From positions 1-52,538 of the forward strand of contig JABIVD010000046.1 in assembly GCA_018667335.1 (NCBI GenBank): a DNA stretch of 52,538 bases, in the 5' to 3' direction. The position numbers and the translations under genes are program-made. The DNA is from Rhodospirillaceae bacterium (lineage in GTDB: Bacteria; Pseudomonadota; Alphaproteobacteria; UBA6615). The notes beneath the pieces are model-generated. The model made no database searches. It was given only the letters and a program-made list of their open reading frames with translations, and had not been told where the DNA came from. Each line of letters opens with the position of its first letter. The stretch's first letter is position 1. Below are positions 44,721 through 52,538 of this stretch, piece by piece.

Positions 44721-44851
44721 CTCGCATTCCTCCATCGGGCGGCGTGTCACCGCGCACGCGACGTCAGCCTAGCCCAACAATCGGGGGCGCACATCTCTGA
44801 TCGTGCCATACTGACACCGACAAAGACGGACTGAATACCGGGGGAAACGTC

Positions 44852-46441
44852 ATGGCGGATTATGACGGCATCATCATCGGCGCCGGCCACAACGGGCTGA
44901 CCACCGCGGCCTACCTGTCACGAACTGGCCAGAAAATCGCCGTGCTGGAGGCCAATCCCCAGATCGGCGGCGGCACCGCGACCGAAGAACCGGCCCTGCC
45001 CGGCCACCGCGCCAATCTGCACGCCAGCTTCTTCATGGGCCTTGGCCACGCGCCCCTGATGCGCGATCTCGAGCTGCAGCGTTTCGGCTTCTCCTATGTC
45101 GAACCGGAGGTCCAGCAGGCCGGCACCTTCCGCGACGGCAGCTGCGTCGTTATCCACAAGGATCTGGAAAAGACCTGCGCGTCGCTGGCCCGCTTCTCAC
45201 AGCGCGACGCCGACACCTTCCGGGACCTGTACCACCGCTACGTAGAGGAAATGCGGCCCCTGCTGGTGTCGCTGATGTACAACGCGCCGCTGCCCCTGGA
45301 CCAGCTGCAGGACCGGCTCTCGGGCCCGAAGGCGAAGGAGCTTCTCGGCCACGCCCAGCATGACCTGTTCTCCGTCGTGTCGGAGTATTTCGACGACGAC
45401 CGCATCCGGACCCTTTTTACGTCGTACATGCATGTCATCACGACGGAGAATGTGCCCGGCAGCGGGATGGTCTTCCCCGGCATCTTCGCCAACGTGACCG
45501 GCTTCACCCTGCCGGTCGGCGGCGCCATCGCCTACCCGCTGGCCTGCGCGCGCATCGTCGCCGCATCCGGCGGCACCGTGCGCACCGACACGCGGGTGCG
45601 CGAGATCACGGTCACCGGCGGGCGGGCCACCGGCGTGGTGCTGGATGACGGCACGACGCTCACCGCCGACCGCTTCGTCGCCAGCTCCATCGACACACCC
45701 ACGACGGTCGCCATGGCCGGCCGCGACCTGTTCGACGATGCGGTGACCGAGAAGCTCGACAACTGGCACTGGGGCAACCACAGCCTGGTGACCCTGCACC
45801 TCGCACTCAAGCAGGCGCCCATCTACAAGGCGCGCGACTTCGACCCGGACATCGATGCGGCCTACAACGTCTTCTTCGGCATGGAGGATCTGGACGAGGT
45901 GCGCAGCTGCTTTGCCGACTGCGAGGCCAAGCGCTTCCCCGATGTGCTGATGGGCAACGGCGCGTGCAACAGCGCGTTCGATCCGTCCTACGCCCCCGCC
46001 GGCCGCCATTCAGCCTTCTGGTGGCCCTTCGCGCCCTACGCGGTGGACGGCGACGCGGCCAACTGGGACGAAAAGCGCGCGGACTACACCCAGCGGATTC
46101 TCGAACGGTGGCGCGACTATGCCGTCAACCTCGGGGACGACAATGTTGACGCGACCTACCTCTACACGCCGCTGGATATCGAACGGCACAACACGAACAT
46201 GATCCAGGGCGCGGTGCGCATGGGTGCCTACATCCCCAGCCAGCTGGGCGTAAACCGGCCGCACCCGCAGCTCTCGGGCACGCGCACGCCGGTCGAGGGG
46301 CTGTATATCTGTGGGTCCGGTGTCGGCAACGGCGGCGGCATGAACGGCGCACCTGGCTATATCGCGGCCAACGCCATCGTCGACGACCTCGGTCTCACCC
46401 GCGACTGGACACCCGTCGCCCAACCCGAGTGGCGCGACTGA
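44852..46441 (+). CDS. FAD-dependent oxidoreductase (phytoene desaturase-like)
   Basis: A 529-aa protein. The dinucleotide-binding start GIIIGAGHNGLTTAAYLSRTG and IAVLEANPQIGGGTATEEP, with the C-terminal YICGSGVGNGGGMNGAPGYI, is the CrtI/amine oxidase family fold. Family members desaturate carotenoids or oxidise amines and retinoid-like molecules. No carotenoid biosynthesis gene is nearby, and the neighbouring genes are catabolic, so a carotenoid role is unlikely. The start at 44852 has GGGGGAAACGTC upstream. It is divergent from the amidohydrolase across 131 nt. Confidence 0.85.
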   Translation: MADYDGIIIGAGHNGLTTAAYLSRTGQKIAVLEANPQIGGGTATEEPALPGHRANLHASFFMGLGHAPLMRDLELQRFGFSYVEPEVQQAGTFRDGSCVVIHKDLEKTCASLARFSQRDADTFRDLYHRYVEEMRPLLVSLMYNAPLPLDQLQDRLSGPKAKELLGHAQHDLFSVVSEYFDDDRIRTLFTSYMHVITTENVPGSGMVFPGIFANVTGFTLPVGGAIAYPLACARIVAASGGTVRTDTRVREITVTGGRATGVVLDDGTTLTADRFVASSIDTPTTVAMAGRDLFDDAVTEKLDNWHWGNHSLVTLHLALKQAPIYKARDFDPDIDAAYNVFFGMEDLDEVRSCFADCEAKRFPDVLMGNGACNSAFDPSYAPAGRHSAFWWPFAPYAVDGDAANWDEKRADYTQRILERWRDYAVNLGDDNVDATYLYTPLDIERHNTNMIQGAVRMGAYIPSQLGVNRPHPQLSGTRTPVEGLYICGSGVGNGGGMNGAPGYIAANAIVDDLGLTRDWTPVAQPEWRD

Positions 46442-46485
46442 CCCCTCCGTCGTTCTCAGGTTCCGGGCACAGGTTTCCTCGTCCG

Positions 46486-46501
46486 TTAACGTTAAATTAA
46501 C
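46486..46501 (+). promoter_or_regulatory. CtrA-type box
   Basis: TTAA-CGTTAAA-TTAAC at 46486-46501 matches the CtrA consensus TTAA-N7-TTAAC without a mismatch. It sits in the 181-nt gap, 122 nt before the first gene of the signalling operon. CtrA is the alphaproteobacterial master regulator of cell cycle and, in many lineages, motility. Confidence 0.6.
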
Positions 46502-46622
46502 CTCAGAATCAGATGTTCGTATGCACGATTCAGCACGCGTCCATACCGCAGTTTGGCCCCGAGTAGGATCTGGCGCGCACGGATCAAATGACACCCCCGA
46601 CACACTCGGAACTGGAACCGCA

Positions 46623-47825
46623 ATGCTTCAACCAATGAAACTCTCGACCATGGGCGCGTTGGTGATGGGGTTCCTGTCCGGGCTGTCGAGTCCGGTACTC
46701 GCAATCAACGCGGACGCACCCATCGTGATTGGTCTCGATGCGGCCATGTCCGGCGTCGACGCACAGGGCGGTGAGGCTATTCGCCGTGGCGCGACAATTG
46801 CGATTGCAGAAATCAATGCCGCAGGGGGCGTGCTGGACCGGCCGTTCAAGCTGATGATTCGCGATCATCGCGCAAACCCGGCGCGCGGCATCGACAACAT
46901 GGACGAATTCGGCGCCACTAAGGATCTCGTCGCGGTGATCGGCGGCGTTCACACCCCTGTCGCCATGGCCGAACTCGAATCCATCCACCGCCATCAGTTG
47001 ATTTACCTCGGGCCCTGGGCGGCGGGTACGCCCATCGTTGCCAACGGCCACAGCCCCAATTTCGTGTTTCGCGTCTCCGTCCGCGATGAACATGCCGGCG
47101 GATTCCTGATCGAAGCGGCCCAAAATCAGGGCTTCAAAAGCCCCGGACTGCTGTTGTGGCGCACGGCCTGGGGTCGGTCCAACGAAAAGGCGATGACGGC
47201 AGCGTTGGGAAACAGCGACATCAATCTGGCCGGAATCGAGTGGTTCAACAGCGGCGAGCGGGATATGAGCCAACAGATAGCCGCGCTGGCCGCCAAGGGG
47301 GCCGATGTGATCATCCTGGTCGCCAATTCGGCCGACGGACGGGTTGCCATTCGCGATATCGCACGCATGCCGGCATCGAACAGGCTCCCGGTCATTTCCC
47401 ACTGGGGCATCACTGGCGGTGATTTCTACGAACGCGCGTCGGCTGATATCAAGCAGGTGGAGCTCACATTCCTGCAGACGTTCTCGTTCTTCGATTCACC
47501 CTTCCCCGACCGGACCAGCCACGTCTACGAGGCTTACTGCGACCTGTTCGGTCCCTGCACATCCGTCGCTGATGTTCGCTCGCCGGTGGGCGTCGCGCAC
47601 GCATATGATCTGGTGCATATGCTGGGCCGCGCGATCGAGAACGCGAACTCAACCGATCGCGTCAAAATCCGGGCTGCGCTTGAAAACCTGCCGTCCCACC
47701 AGGGGCTCATGCGAGATTACAACCCACCGTTTACTGCCAATCGCCACGATGCACTCGACGCCCGGGATTTTCGGTTGAGCCGGTTTAGTACAATGGGATC
47801 AATCGTACCCGCGGAGACGCGGTGA
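46623..47825 (+). CDS. ABC-type substrate-binding protein (Leu/Ile/Val-binding fold)
   Basis: A 400-aa protein. A signal peptide (about residues 5-30, STMGALVMGFLSGLSSPVLA) is followed by a periplasmic binding protein type-1 fold with AIAEINAAGGVLDRPFKLMI, VAVIGGVHTPVAMAELESIH and FVFRVSVRDEHAGGFLI. The family normally hands amino-acid-like ligands to an ABC importer. No permease or ATPase gene adjoins, and the gene ends in a 4-nt overlap with a sensor kinase. It is therefore inferred to sense for that kinase. An alternative start is Met at 46635. Confidence 0.85.
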   Translation: MLQPMKLSTMGALVMGFLSGLSSPVLAINADAPIVIGLDAAMSGVDAQGGEAIRRGATIAIAEINAAGGVLDRPFKLMIRDHRANPARGIDNMDEFGATKDLVAVIGGVHTPVAMAELESIHRHQLIYLGPWAAGTPIVANGHSPNFVFRVSVRDEHAGGFLIEAAQNQGFKSPGLLLWRTAWGRSNEKAMTAALGNSDINLAGIEWFNSGERDMSQQIAALAAKGADVIILVANSADGRVAIRDIARMPASNRLPVISHWGITGGDFYERASADIKQVELTFLQTFSFFDSPFPDRTSHVYEAYCDLFGPCTSVADVRSPVGVAHAYDLVHMLGRAIENANSTDRVKIRAALENLPSHQGLMRDYNPPFTANRHDALDARDFRLSRFSTMGSIVPAETR

Positions 47826-49933
47826 TCCTCTCCAACAAAATTCTGCCGCGGGTTCTGGCCCAGATACTGCCGATCATGGTGGTCGTGATGCTTGCCATCG
47901 GGTACTTCGCCCAGCTGACGGTCAAGCAGGCCGCGCTCGACGTGCATCAAAAACGGTTGGAACAGGTGGCCGCGCAATCGTCGACCGCGCTTGCCGTGAG
48001 ATTGCAGAACGTCGTCGACACGGCGCAAGCACTGGCCGCCAATGACCTGGTGATCAACAGCCTGATCGATCTGACAGACCGGGAACGCTACATCCCGACC
48101 CTGTTCCAGTCGCTTGGCATTCCCGGTTCAACCCGCGCCCGGGTGTCGCTCGTCGACTACCGCGGACGGCCCATCGCCTCCAACGCACCGGGGCTCGACC
48201 ATTCGGATAAGGGCTGGATTCCCAATGTTATGGGCGGGCATGAGCTGATCCGAACTGACGCTGGCGGGATGATTGTCGCCGTCCCCATCCTCTTCGAGAA
48301 ACTGGCCGAGGGCATGATCCTCGTCGAACTCGACGCACGGGGATTTGCCGATCTCGTCGCGTTGCCGGTTCAGGCGGACGGCTACGCGATAACAACATTC
48401 GATGGCAGCACCGTTTATACGTCCGCAGACACCCTGTTACCGGCAAAAGGCCCGGAAGACGGCCCCGGAGACCGAAGCGAAAGTTGGATGTCCGTCTCAA
48501 CATTGATCGCGGGATTCCCAAACTTAAGTCTCGTGATCGGTGACCGAATGGCGACCGTCCTCGTTCCGATCGAGCGGCAAGAAACATTCTTTCTGGTGGC
48601 AATTCTGTTGAGCATCGTAGCGGTGGGCGTCGGTATATTCGTCACCGCGATCAAGGTCGTCATCCCCATCCGGCAATTCATCTCCGGTGTCGAGAATGTC
48701 AGCAGTTCCGCCGATCTTGGATACAGAATAGAGCCTTTTGGCACCGAGGAATTCAGGAAACTGACGGGCAGCTTCAACAACATGCTGGCCGATATCGAAA
48801 GCACCACGACGTCGCGCGACTACACCGACGGCATCCTCAACTCCATGAACGAATTCATGCTCGTGGTTTCTGACGACGGCCGCATTCAGTCCGGCAACAG
48901 GGCAATGGCCCGTGCGCTGGGATGCCCGGCAGACGATCTGGTGGGGCGAAAGGTCTCATCACTTGTCACGGGCGACTGGCACGAACTCGTGACGTCGGTG
49001 AACGAGGATCGACGATCCGTAGAACGCAGTCTGATCATCGGAGAAAATTCCAATATCCCCGTGCTTGTCTCGGTGTCGCCAATGCACCCGAATGACGAGA
49101 GTCTCGACCAACCACACGAGGCCGAAGCAAGAACACTGATCCTCGTTCTGAAGGACATGACCGAGCAGATCCATGACAAGGCGCTGCTCGACCGTCATGT
49201 CAGCGACTTGGAGCGTTCTAACGCGGATCTGGAGCAGTTTGCCTATGTCGCATCCCATGATCTGAAGGCACCGTTGCGGGCGATCGACAATCTGGCCGGC
49301 TGGATCGAGGAAGATGTCGCCGACCGGATGTCCGACGACAGTCGCGGCCACATGACCCTGCTGCGGAGCAGAATAAAACGTCTCGAGGCCTTGCTCGAAG
49401 GCTTGTTGCGCTACGCCCGTGCGGGCCGCGACGAGACCGAACTTTCATATGTCGACACGGGGCCTCTGGTGTCCGAATCCGTTGAATTGCTCGGCGAGCC
49501 GGAAGTCCTCCGCGTCGACATCCCTGGCGATATGCCCTGGATCCAAACGTCTGCGGCCGCGCTGCAGCAGGTGTTCCGCAACCTGATCGGCAACGCCGCC
49601 AAACATCGTGACCGGGACAACGTCCATGTCACGATCGGCTACCGAAATTTGGGGTCCGTGGTTGAATTCACCGTGGCCGATGACGGGCCGGGAATACCCG
49701 AAGAGTTTCATCACCGTATCTTCCAGATGTTCCAGACACTCAAACGGCGGGACGAGGTCGAAGGCAGCGGGCTGGGCCTCGCGATGGTGCAGAAACTGGT
49801 GCGCGCCAACGGCGGCGAGATCGAGGTGGAATCGCACAACGGTGAAAGAGGTTCGGTTTTCCGGTTCACCTGGGCCAACCACATATCGGAACCCGAACAA
49901 GAATTTCAGATGGAGAGAAAGAATGTCGCATAA
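47822..49933 (+). CDS. Membrane PAS-domain sensor histidine kinase
   Basis: A 703-aa protein. TM1 is about residues 13-33, a ~220-residue periplasmic sensing domain follows, TM2 is about 245-270, then HAMP (about 270-325) and PAS (about 335-450). The HisKA part contains YVASHDLKAPL (phospho-acceptor His479). The ATPase part has NAAKHRD and the DDGPGIPEEF and EGSGLGLAMV boxes. The start is GTG at 47822, overlapping the upstream stop as GTGA. Coupled to a periplasmic binding protein, it probably receives a ligand signal through that partner. Confidence 0.92.
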   Translation: MILSNKILPRVLAQILPIMVVVMLAIGYFAQLTVKQAALDVHQKRLEQVAAQSSTALAVRLQNVVDTAQALAANDLVINSLIDLTDRERYIPTLFQSLGIPGSTRARVSLVDYRGRPIASNAPGLDHSDKGWIPNVMGGHELIRTDAGGMIVAVPILFEKLAEGMILVELDARGFADLVALPVQADGYAITTFDGSTVYTSADTLLPAKGPEDGPGDRSESWMSVSTLIAGFPNLSLVIGDRMATVLVPIERQETFFLVAILLSIVAVGVGIFVTAIKVVIPIRQFISGVENVSSSADLGYRIEPFGTEEFRKLTGSFNNMLADIESTTTSRDYTDGILNSMNEFMLVVSDDGRIQSGNRAMARALGCPADDLVGRKVSSLVTGDWHELVTSVNEDRRSVERSLIIGENSNIPVLVSVSPMHPNDESLDQPHEAEARTLILVLKDMTEQIHDKALLDRHVSDLERSNADLEQFAYVASHDLKAPLRAIDNLAGWIEEDVADRMSDDSRGHMTLLRSRIKRLEALLEGLLRYARAGRDETELSYVDTGPLVSESVELLGEPEVLRVDIPGDMPWIQTSAAALQQVFRNLIGNAAKHRDRDNVHVTIGYRNLGSVVEFTVADDGPGIPEEFHHRIFQMFQTLKRRDEVEGSGLGLAMVQKLVRANGGEIEVESHNGERGSVFRFTWANHISEPEQEFQMERKNVA

Positions 49934-50354
49934 GGACGTCACGTTCCTGCTTGTCGAAGACGACGAAGTCGACATCATGCATCTGCAGCGGTCCTTCAAG
50001 AAATTGGATATCGCCAATCCGATGCTGGTGGCAAACGACGGTGTCGAGGCGCTGGAGATACTCCGCGGAGAAAACGGTCATACGCCGCTCGGGCATCCCT
50101 ACATAATCCTGCTCGACCTCAACATGCCGCGCATGTCGGGATTGGAATTTCTGCATGAAGTTCGAAGCGATCCGGCACTTCGTCGCAGCGTGATCTTCGT
50201 TCTGACCACCTCGAACGACGATCAGGACAAGATCAAAGCTTTCGACAACCACGTCGCCGGATACATCCTGAAAAGCGAGGCCGGTATTTCATTCCCCGAA
50301 GCGCTGGAGATGCTGGACTGCTATTTGCGCGTGGTGGAGCTGCCAGCGGCATGA
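49923..50354 (+). CDS. Rcp1-like single-domain response regulator
   Basis: A 143-aa CheY-like receiver. FLLVEDDEVDIMHLQRSFKK (acidic cluster) leads to phospho-Asp65 in IILLDLNMPRMSG, the Thr switch in VLTTSNDD and Lys at LKSEAGI. The DD(x)VD...HLQ variant is the Rcp1 type seen beside phytochrome/PAS kinases and signal relays. It overlaps the kinase gene by 11 nt and shares its last ATGA with the following REC-GGDEF-EAL gene. It has no output domain and is probably a phosphate relay or an adaptor. Confidence 0.92.
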   Translation: MSHKDVTFLLVEDDEVDIMHLQRSFKKLDIANPMLVANDGVEALEILRGENGHTPLGHPYIILLDLNMPRMSGLEFLHEVRSDPALRRSVIFVLTTSNDDQDKIKAFDNHVAGYILKSEAGISFPEALEMLDCYLRVVELPAA

Positions 50355-52087
50355 CAGATCATTTGAAAATATTGCTGGTCGATGATGATGATGTCGACCG
50401 TTTGACGGTGCGCCGTGCCATGGAGCAGTCGGGTCTGAACTACGACCTGACCGAAGCGGTGGACGGGGCTGGCGCTCTGGTGGCCTGTGCCGCCCAAAAG
50501 TTCGATTGCGTTTTTCTGGATTACCGCCTTCCCGACTACGACGGTGACATTATCTTTGCCGAAATGGTTGCGGAACATGACAGTCAGGCAGCAGTGATTT
50601 TTCTGACCGGAGAAAACGACGAAAAGCTCGCCCAGAAAATGATGGGCTCCGGTGCGGTCGACTATCTGACCAAAGCAGAAATTTCCGGGACCGTCCTGAG
50701 GCGCGCTGTGCAATACGCCAGCGCGCGCCATAATTTCCACAAACAGCTCGCCGAGATGGCTCGTATCGACGTGCTGACGGGTTTACCGAACCGGTCCGTT
50801 TTCGAGTCTGTGCTGACGAAGGCAATCGCCCAGGCAGGTCGTGCACAAAATATGGTCGCGGTAACGCTTCTGGATCTGGACAATTTCAAAGACGTGAATG
50901 ACACATTGGGCCACGCCGCAGGTGACCAACTTCTGAAAATGATGTCCGAACGACTGTCGGCACGGGGCCGCGTCACCGACACCGTAATCCGGCTCGGCGG
51001 CGACGAATTCGCGATCATCGCACCCAACATAAACGACGCCCAGGGGGCATCCCGGCACGCGCAGAAGATCATCGACGCATTGGCCGAGCCGTTCGAGGGC
51101 GAGGACCAGAAATTGTTCATGTCCTGTAGCGCCGGTATCGCACTGGCGCCGATGGACGGCACCGACCCGACACAGTTGTTGAAATGCGCCGATATGGCCC
51201 TCTACAGGGCCAAGGCCGAAGGTCGTGGCAGGTTTCACTTCTTCGATGAAAAAATGAACACCGCCGTGCAGGACCAGCGCGCCCTGGAATCCGACCTTCG
51301 ACAGGCCGTGGCCAAGAACGAGTTCGAACTCTTCTATCAACCCAAGGTCGACATCCGTACCGGCCAGGTGCTCGGCACGGAGAGCCTGATTCGTTGGAAC
51401 CAGCCCGAGCGCGGCCTGATTCCACCAAACGACTTCATTCCTGCCGCCGAGAAATGTCATCTCATCGTCGAAATCGGCGACTGGGTGCTCCGGGAAACCT
51501 GCCGCCAGCACGTCGCCTGGCGCGACGCGGGCATCCCGCCCCTCAACTGTTCGATCAACCTGTCACCGCACCAGTTGAAGGATACGCAGATCATTGCGTC
51601 GGTCGACCGGGCGTTGAAGCAATCGGGGCTGGAAGACGGTTGCCTGGAAATCGAGATCACCGAAAGCGCGATTCTGGACAACATCAAAAGCATCTCCGAA
51701 CTTCTCGGAATGTTGCGAATGCGTGGTGTCTCCGTATCGATCGACGATTTCGGCACCGGCTATTCCTCGCTCACTCACCTCAAACAGCTGCCGGTCGACA
51801 CGCTCAAGATCGATCGATCTTTTGTCTCGAATCTGCCCGGCGACGAAGGTGACGCCGCGATCACAAGTGCCACGATCTCGCTCGGCAAGACCTTTGGGTT
51901 GAAAGTCATCGCGGAAGGTGTCGAAGACCAGGAGCAGCTCGATTTCCTGCGCCGCGAGGGCTGCGATCAGGCGCAGGGCTACTATCTCAGCCGCCCCATG
52001 CCGGCTGCTGAATTCCCGAGCTGGTACCGGGAATATCAGACCCGCCGGATCGCCACGATCGGCGCGCCCGCAGCCCAGGCCGGCTAA
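50351..52087 (+). CDS. REC-GGDEF-EAL cyclic-di-GMP signalling protein
   Basis: A 578-aa protein. An N-terminal receiver has phospho-Asp57 (CVFLDYRLPDYDG). A GGDEF domain has GGDEF at 216-220 with the inhibitory RxxD I-site (RVTD) five residues before it. An EAL domain has ESL at 344-346 in place of EAL, and the remaining catalytic set (NCSINLSP, ITESAI, DDFGTGYSS, KIDRSF, AEGVE and QAQGYYLS) is present. Both cyclase and phosphodiesterase activity are plausible, and phosphorylation likely sets the balance. It is the last gene of the operon (4-nt overlap) and translates the upstream signal into c-di-GMP level. Confidence 0.93.
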   Translation: MTDHLKILLVDDDDVDRLTVRRAMEQSGLNYDLTEAVDGAGALVACAAQKFDCVFLDYRLPDYDGDIIFAEMVAEHDSQAAVIFLTGENDEKLAQKMMGSGAVDYLTKAEISGTVLRRAVQYASARHNFHKQLAEMARIDVLTGLPNRSVFESVLTKAIAQAGRAQNMVAVTLLDLDNFKDVNDTLGHAAGDQLLKMMSERLSARGRVTDTVIRLGGDEFAIIAPNINDAQGASRHAQKIIDALAEPFEGEDQKLFMSCSAGIALAPMDGTDPTQLLKCADMALYRAKAEGRGRFHFFDEKMNTAVQDQRALESDLRQAVAKNEFELFYQPKVDIRTGQVLGTESLIRWNQPERGLIPPNDFIPAAEKCHLIVEIGDWVLRETCRQHVAWRDAGIPPLNCSINLSPHQLKDTQIIASVDRALKQSGLEDGCLEIEITESAILDNIKSISELLGMLRMRGVSVSIDDFGTGYSSLTHLKQLPVDTLKIDRSFVSNLPGDEGDAAITSATISLGKTFGLKVIAEGVEDQEQLDFLRREGCDQAQGYYLSRPMPAAEFPSWYREYQTRRIATIGAPAAQAG

Positions 52088-52131
52088 CAGCTCACGGCGG
52101 ACAAACTTCGCGGATTATGTTTTGAGAAAAT

Positions 52132-52187
52132 TGGTCGGGAAGAGAGGATTCGAACCTCCGGCCCCTACGTCCCGAACGTAGTGCTCG
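52132..52187 (-). other. 3' half of tRNA-Pro(CGG): probable attachment site remnant
   Basis: On the minus strand the sequence reads an anticodon arm CTACG-TTCGGGA-CGTAG (anticodon CGG), the variable loop, T-arm GGAGG-TTCGAAT-CCTCT, the acceptor 3' strand CTTCCCG and A-CCA. The D-arm and 5' acceptor strand are missing: upstream is unrelated A+T-rich DNA. Such a 3' tRNA fragment next to an integrase gene marks the displaced end of an integrated element, and the intact tRNA should lie at the element's other end. Confidence 0.75.
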
Positions 52188-52312
52188 CAACATGATCATT
52201 TGAGATTAATTTTTTTATTATTGTTTAAATACAGTCGGTTAAGCCCCTCTAAAGTCAGACCAGATAGTTCCGTCGCGTTGCTTGTACCACTCCTGTGCCA
52301 CAGGAGATGGAT

Positions 52313-52538
52313 TTGGCATCAATAATGAAACGTAACGGGCGATATACGGCTCGTGTTCGGCGTCAGGGTACGCCTGTGCAGACCAAGACCTTTGATCTGA
52401 CCTCTGATGCTCGTCGTTGGGCTGCAGAGACGGAACGACAGATCGACCTTGGCCACTTAATTACGAATGATTGCACTGTCGGGCAGTTGCTCGAGCGCTA
52501 TGGTCGAGAGGTAACGCCAACCAAACGTGGCTTCTATG
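52313..52538 (+). CDS. Tyrosine-recombinase integrase, N-terminus only
   Basis: Seventy-five residues are visible before the window edge, starting (TTG) LASIMKRNGRYTARVRRQGT and continuing TKTFDLTSDARRWAAETERQ and VGQLLERYGREVTP. This is the N-terminal arm-binding/SAM-like part typical of phage and island integrases. The catalytic R-H-R-Y part lies outside. The TTG at 52313 has CAGGAG 6 nt upstream, whereas the ATG at 52307 abuts that site. It sits beside a tRNA-Pro 3' fragment, its likely target, so it belongs to an element extending to the right. Confidence 0.8.
   Translation, partial: MASIMKRNGRYTARVRRQGTPVQTKTFDLTSDARRWAAETERQIDLGHLITNDCTVGQLLERYGREVTPTKRGFY

Follow-up and report, generated by a model that had tools for sequence, protein, structure and literature searches.

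Genes and Features at the Contig End

The window, i.e., the whole stretch of DNA analyzed, comprised the complete 52,538-nucleotide contig C7 of the Rhodospirillaceae genome studied (G000; a draft of 62 contigs and 3.55 Mb), with position 52538 being the contig end, and the sequence of its last 1.5 kb was inspected directly. Towards this end, a FAD-dependent oxidoreductase gene (44852..46441, plus strand; Pfam Amino_oxidase and synteny with L035 and L037), used as the landmark of the empty site, was followed by a c-di-GMP operon (46521..52087, plus strand), a 3' part of tRNA-Pro(CGG) (52132..52186, minus strand), an A+T-rich stretch of element sequence reaching to the integrase-side arm site (52187..52278), and the beginning of a tyrosine integrase gene (52295..52538, plus strand) cut off by the contig end after 81 codons.

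The tRNA-Pro part included positions 23-77 with the CCA and, together with 7 nt of flank beyond the CCA (52125-52131), was identical at 62 of 62 positions to contig C20 of the same genome (33743-33804). The matching sequence on C20 sits within an intact tRNA-Pro(CGG) recognized by ARAGORN, an identity that marks the part in the window as a displaced fragment on the attR side and supplies an intact gene with the same 3' part, for which the sequence-only reading had proposed to look further rightward; C7 and C20 both terminate within the element. That reading had described an anticodon-to-CCA half of the tRNA lacking the 5' half; the 3' part through the CCA and the missing 5' half were both borne out, while the fragment starts at the end of the D-arm (position 23) and is slightly longer than proposed. 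ARAGORN detected no complete tRNA in the whole window, and no Rfam tRNA match in the window reached the gathering score, as expected where only positions 23-77 of a tRNA are present. The DNA adjoining the truncated side of the fragment was A+T-rich, as had been noted, with a G+C content of 0.24 at 52187-52240 and 0.36 at 52187-52278 against a window mean of 0.64, and a DNA search of G000 reported no second copy of the stretch 52187..52278.

The predicted rightward integrase N-terminus was likewise found as an open frame from 52295, its start codon being uncertain (GTG at 52295, TTG at 52313, or ATG at 52325). The 81 visible amino acids were 94% identical to the start of a full-length integrase of 328 residues in genome G011 whose C-terminal half matches Phage_integrase (PF00589, 1.7e-25), and it is via this relative that they were assigned as a tyrosine integrase; on their own they gave no Pfam or NCBIfam match. 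At the DNA level, the integrase start was identical at 245 of 262 positions to G011 and at 248 of 262 to G017, both of which hold elements in the forward layout defined below. The remainder of the gene was not detected elsewhere in G000 at E 1e-60, the integrase on contig C59 being the only one reported. The first integrase codons are overlapped by a doubled motif, TTGTACCACTCCTGTGCCA (52282..52300, plus strand), which was identified by pattern search and by its position relative to the tRNA and contains probable arm-type integrase binding sites.

The c-di-GMP operon encodes a periplasmic binding protein, a histidine kinase, a response regulator, and a GGDEF-EAL protein (Pfam and synteny); it lies outside the element and fills the space from the oxidoreductase gene to the tRNA-Pro fragment (46442-52131). 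Synteny placed no such operon at this position in the related genomes G004, G005, and G006. Among the matches listed, DNA searches of the family yielded pieces of at most 74 bp for the first part of the operon and of at most about 270 bp, at 67-69% identity, for the GGDEF-EAL gene. The operon has the appearance of an independent insertion into this locus.

Reconstruction of the tRNA-Pro Locus

The empty site was represented by two relatives. In G005, which belongs to the same genus, an intact tRNA-Pro lay 31 bp from the end of the homologue of window positions 44802-46441 (the FAD oxidoreductase gene) and was directly adjoined on its other side by the homologue of C20, and G004 displayed the same arrangement with 32 bp between the oxidoreductase gene and the tRNA-Pro. 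The same order of C7 and C20 homologues occurred in G006 with a gap of approximately 740 bp. Since the homologues of C7 and C20 flank one tRNA-Pro in these relatives, C7 and C20 constitute the two flanks of a single tRNA-Pro locus. Both this link and the orientation of the fragment relative to the tRNA (its 3' end, on the 3' side of the tRNA and in the same orientation, judged against the empty site of G005) come from synteny; no contig joins C7 to C20, and the interior and size of the window element are consequently unseen. DNA searches with the ends of C7 and C20 revealed no overlaps between contig ends beyond tRNAs and element relatives, and a search of G000 for the cargo gene of the G003 element (SNase) as a sign of the element interior gave only weak matches (E 1.6e-7 and 3.8e-5).

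On C20, the intact tRNA was followed by 66 bp of host-type flank, a stretch common to the tRNA 3' side of tRNA-Pro elements, and the far end of the element. The 66-bp flank (L009 8799-8864) includes the end of an oxidoreductase gene (its final eleven codons with the stop), the last 37 bases of which matched the corresponding gene of G000 at 30 of 37 positions, that of G005 at 30, and that of G004 at 29; the G006 row, being out of register, was left out of this comparison. As this tail differs from the G000 gene at 7 of 37 positions and resembles the G005 and G004 genes no better, it is taken to be an old or foreign copy of the host flank kept by the element. Reading the flank as a mark of transfer from another host was weakened, the tail not being a recent copy of the G000, G005, or G004 gene.

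A comparable pair of ends was present in G002. Its contig C10 carried an intact tRNA with flank and far end, like C20, and its contig C17 displayed a similar flank, then a 38-nt tRNA-Pro fragment, and then element DNA in the same layout as the window. The C17 element DNA was 78-79% identical to the sequence immediately 3' of the integrase in forward elements (L031 and L033) and 86% identical to part of L045 and, relative to the integrase direction of forward elements, its reading direction leads away from the fragment, just as in the window. No integrase or exact doubled motif was found beside the C17 fragment.

An intact tRNA gene and a displaced fragment at two ends and an integrase (first 81 amino acids) in G000, together with an empty site in the close relatives G004 and G005, are features by which tRNA islands are recognized. 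The proposal that the window closes with the left end of an integrated element was supported by the homologues of C7 and C20 adjoining one intact tRNA-Pro in G004 and G005 and by C20 bearing the other element end. The end of the window is thus regarded with good confidence as a genuine attR junction, belonging to a tRNA-Pro element of an ordinary kind but with a layout reversed compared to its close relatives; neither this reversal nor the position of the c-di-GMP operon outside the element had been anticipated by the sequence-only reading. We infer that the contig ends of C7 and C20 belong to one element and that it may be active at present. In the proposed mechanism, an integrative element would have entered tRNA-Pro(CGG) through recombination by its tyrosine integrase, somewhere from the D-arm to the 3' end of the gene, with a crossover probably at the anticodon. 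At the far end (C20), the tRNA would have been restored to an intact gene, and the original 3' part would have been displaced to become the fragment in the window. The element would thereby have been placed with its integrase end at the displaced fragment and its far end at the rebuilt tRNA, opposite to close relatives.

The Element Family and Its Doubled Motif

Integrases of this family were identified in six of the 24 genomes, G000 included (E 1e-60), where they adjoin tRNA-Pro(CGG), tRNA-Val(CAC), and tRNA-Thr (Thr read by eye), and G021 held a truncated integrase start beside tRNA-Ala(CGC). Forward elements, in which the tRNA 3' side faces the integrase, were located at tRNA-Pro (G011, G017, and G021), tRNA-Val (C59 of G000, G011, G020, and G021), and tRNA-Thr (G021 and G023, by eye). 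They share with the window the integrase family, the arm motif (inexact at two Thr integrase ends), and the tRNA anticodon core, whereas the window element is reversed. Relatives with both ends visible measured about 4.1, 7.1, 7.8, and 11.7 kb from motif to motif, the integrase-side position of the 4.1-kb relative being set by hand, and the integrase genes of several relatives were broken by a frameshift or stop. Cargo varied, including a UG4-type reverse transcriptase in G011, Sel1 repeats in G021, and a nuclease in G003. A PHROGs scan of ten proteins from related elements matched three of the nine non-integrase proteins to reverse transcriptase, nuclease, or unknown families and the other six to none, and no structural phage or conjugation genes were named among the selected proteins of related elements scanned.

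Several individual elements displayed features of their own. The reverse transcriptase of the G011 tRNA-Pro element (L033 2456-5776, contig C5) was identified as PADLOC RT_UG4 (2.6e-62), and beside it three open frames of 72 amino acids, about 0.75 kb apart, repeat its C-terminal part; judged by sequence, these frames are a putative tandem duplication of part of a defence-type gene. Complete tRNA-Pro(CGG) genes were present at both element ends in G021 (L031 3381-3457 and 10923-10999) and G011 (L033 129-205 and 8308-8384), and these elements therefore seem to bring a whole tRNA gene. The far ends of tRNA-Val elements (L090 450-565 on C19 of G000; L205 and L206 on C20 and C28 of G021) carried a tRNA-Val copy with 26 nt replacing 3 in the D-arm, a change that was identical by eye in the three far ends, i.e., a tRNA gene broken in one fixed way. 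In G023 (L044 2880-2960, contig C131), the 3' acceptor strand of the tRNA-Thr by the integrase seemed by eye to be unpaired with the 5' strand and ARAGORN made no call, such that this rebuilt tRNA may be damaged.

Comparison of element ends revealed an 8-mer doubled with an 11-bp period (TTGTNCCAnnnYTGTNCCA) and present at both the integrase end and the far end. The pattern had 19 matches in the 24 family genomes, spread over seven of them, compared to zero for the reversed-pattern control; one match (C7 of G011) duplicates another (C5 of G011) on overlapping contigs. All 19 lay within 321 bp of the anticodon arm of a tRNA-Pro, -Val, -Thr, or -Ala, intact or fragment, and the integrase end and far end were on the side predicted by motif direction in 19 of 19. 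G000 contained exactly four doubled motifs, on C7 and C20 for the Pro element and on C59 and C19 for the Val element. Inexact forms, outside the 19, were observed at the integrase ends of two Thr elements and at a far end in G001. The arm site in the window shares letters with the tRNA-Pro elements and not with C59. Because of its position and form, the doubled motif probably represents arm-type sites for the N-terminal domain of the integrase, which it would bind. In fragmented assemblies from these bacteria, it is also a precise marker by which either end of an element of this family can be located. A less strict end pattern of 17 bases was discarded as unspecific, with 7 matches in the 24 genomes versus 16 for its reversed control.

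Orientation of the tRNA Core Relative to the Integrase

Islands in tRNA genes are common, and the build of attP decides which end carries the integrase. Along the tRNA, 15 of the 19 motifs pointed 5' to 3'; nine of these sites were integrase ends, on the 3' side of the tRNA, and six were far ends, on its 5' side. The remaining four were reversed (C7 and C20 of G000, C10 of G002, and C185 of G003). All four reversed sites were tRNA-Pro in genus g1; tRNA-Pro elements of genus g6 were forward, as was the Val element of G000. Only the window displayed integrase and fragment on one contig among the reversed motifs, the other three marking far ends.

A 52-bp stretch around GGCGGCGTCAGGAAGCCGT was found on the tRNA 3' side in both forward (G011, G017, and G021) and reversed (C20 and G003) tRNA-Pro elements, the C20 and G017 copies aligning over 52 bp with a score of 74 (shuffle maximum 26). 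The transition out of this stretch and into the far end is further common to C20 and G003 (alignment score 191, shuffle maximum 32), from which it follows that the reversed state is older than their split and no artefact of a single assembly. At the two element ends, TGCTTGTACCACTCCT and TGCTTGTTCCACATCCT form a near-identical pair of inverted sequences, and inversion of the cassette between them gives the order observed. The 5' side of the window had no alignment with the matching side of forward elements outside a shared 17-bp site (score 22; shuffle maxima 25 and 24), and the inversion is for this reason not proven base by base.

These comparisons tip slightly in favor of an att cassette (tRNA core plus flank) that, prior to the divergence of the genus-g1 elements, would have been inverted between TGCTTGTACCACTCCT and TGCTTGTTCCACATCCT with respect to the arm sites and the integrase. 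A bolder proposal, put forward tentatively and judged rather doubtful, is that one integrase, acting on the same doubled arm sites, can integrate elements whose tRNA core faces either way, the att cassette being invertible between short inverted repeats at the element ends. If true, the orientation switch at tRNA attachment sites would be evolvable, perhaps made by the integrase, rather than a fixed trait of an integrase subfamily. Sister genera with near-identical integrase starts, the same arm motif, and opposite core orientation make the linkage between core orientation and integrase testable with natural pairs. Among the titles and abstracts listed for element orientation at tRNA sites, none dealt with closely related integrases of opposite core orientation. 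Chromosomal inversion between related elements is described in archaea (PMC8371274); as a candidate here it was rejected, as it would swap integrase halves and not bring the truncated side of the fragment to the integrase start.

Wider Integrase Loci and Alternative Explanations

A further 85 more distant integrase loci were collected, 80 from IMG/VR and five of 13 from GTDB genomes, and 60 of them offered 100 bp or more of upstream sequence. In 29 of the 60, this sequence contained a tRNA T-arm with CCA, on the integrase strand in 21 and on the opposite strand, as in the window, in eight. ARAGORN, which is blind to fragments, identified an intact tRNA upstream in ten of the 60, all on the integrase strand; five of these ten were missed by the T-arm pattern and their inclusion gave 26 versus 8. 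Five of the eight opposite-strand loci (L138-L141 and L144) resemble one group of related contigs, and the independent cases are fewer. At L056, where the integrase was 42% identical, the opposite strand carried a tRNA-Cys-like 3' part, and a doubled motif with the same form was present. The eight opposite-strand loci of 29 and L056 indicate that the reversed layout is a minority arrangement of a known type; unusual is the presence of both layouts with integrase starts about 94% identical. Two other candidates from this set were rejected. L058 had been considered a complete reversed element (fragment, integrase, and intact tRNA-Arg), but the fragment matched the tRNA at only 87.5% over 40 nt. 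Letter-for-letter conservation of the motif in distant relatives was also abandoned, a score of at least 14 of 16 being reached in 3 of the 60 upstream regions on the integrase strand and 13 on the opposite strand (mean best of shuffles 10.9 on the scale of 16). Outside the family, the tandem form alone is suggestive and no claim was built on it.

Both layouts occurring among these wider relatives, together with L056, would fit a history for the reversed junction without a recent inversion, which competes with the inversion and not with the integrated element itself. The integrase lineage would have long resided beside the displaced fragment and the 94% match would reflect a swapped integrase start, as could be accommodated by a window integrase visible for 81 amino acids only. 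The presence of the GGCGGCGTCAGGAAGCCGT stretch on the tRNA 3' side in both layouts fits one cassette turned in a shared ancestor, and the history without inversion is considered possible but not probable.

Two alternatives question whether the fragment and the integrase belong together. A nested or tandem arrangement, with the fragment as an old remnant and the integrase from a second element, has a precedent in the tandem islands possible in one tRNA gene according to the Islander source (PMC4383910), and the c-di-GMP operon shows that another insertion already lies between the tRNA and its usual neighbor. An old remnant is at odds with the identity of fragment and flank to the intact tRNA at 62 of 62 positions, and apart from the tRNA-Val contigs C59 and C19, G000 has one integrase-side and one far-side motif; this arrangement is thus deemed improbable. 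The junction also lies less than 400 bp from a contig end in a 62-contig draft, and with a related integrase in the genome at C59, an assembly chimera could have joined a tRNA-Pro fragment and an integrase start from different places. Far ends 3' of an intact tRNA-Pro in C20, G001 (inexact motif), G002, and G003 are nevertheless the reciprocal of the window, on C17 of G002 a displaced tRNA-Pro fragment is accompanied by element genes that run the same way, and the arm site in the window is lettered like those of tRNA-Pro elements and unlike C59. A chimera is accordingly rated as highly improbable, and an integrated tRNA-Pro element with reversed layout was retained as the preferred reading.

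Comparison With Known Integrative Systems

The satellite gene set of phage-inducible islands of the PICI type includes AlpA, primase, and similar genes. As presented in PMC10111431, helper-embedded PICIs carry a doubled tandem short motif once per core side with the copies co-oriented, which was also the case here. The letters differ, being TTGTNCCA with an 11-bp period in the present family compared to TGTATTGC in the helper-embedded PICIs, and the doubled motif beside the fragment reads TTGTACCACTCCTGTGCCA and not TGTATTGC. The present elements are also distinguished by tRNA targets and by a core orientation that varies between sister lineages. No satellite genes were seen among the proteins scanned from related elements, the interior of the window element lying beyond the contig.

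The use of a tRNA gene as attachment site is shared with the phages of tRNA-dependent lysogeny (PMC10865867), and the complete tRNA-Pro at both element ends in G011 and G021 adds a further likeness. In those phages, the sequence common to attP and attB is only about 10 bp long and integration does not rebuild the host tRNA, whereas 62 bp are shared here and an intact tRNA-Pro is present at the C20 junction.

Islander islands (PMC4383910) have an intact tRNA and a displaced 3' fragment at their ends with a tyrosine integrase between, as observed here, and an anticodon-centred crossover is among the sites described, a likeness to the element proposed above. Compared to these islands, the ends of the present element lie on separate contigs, and its integrase is positioned by the fragment, whereas in close relatives it is by the tRNA 3' side.
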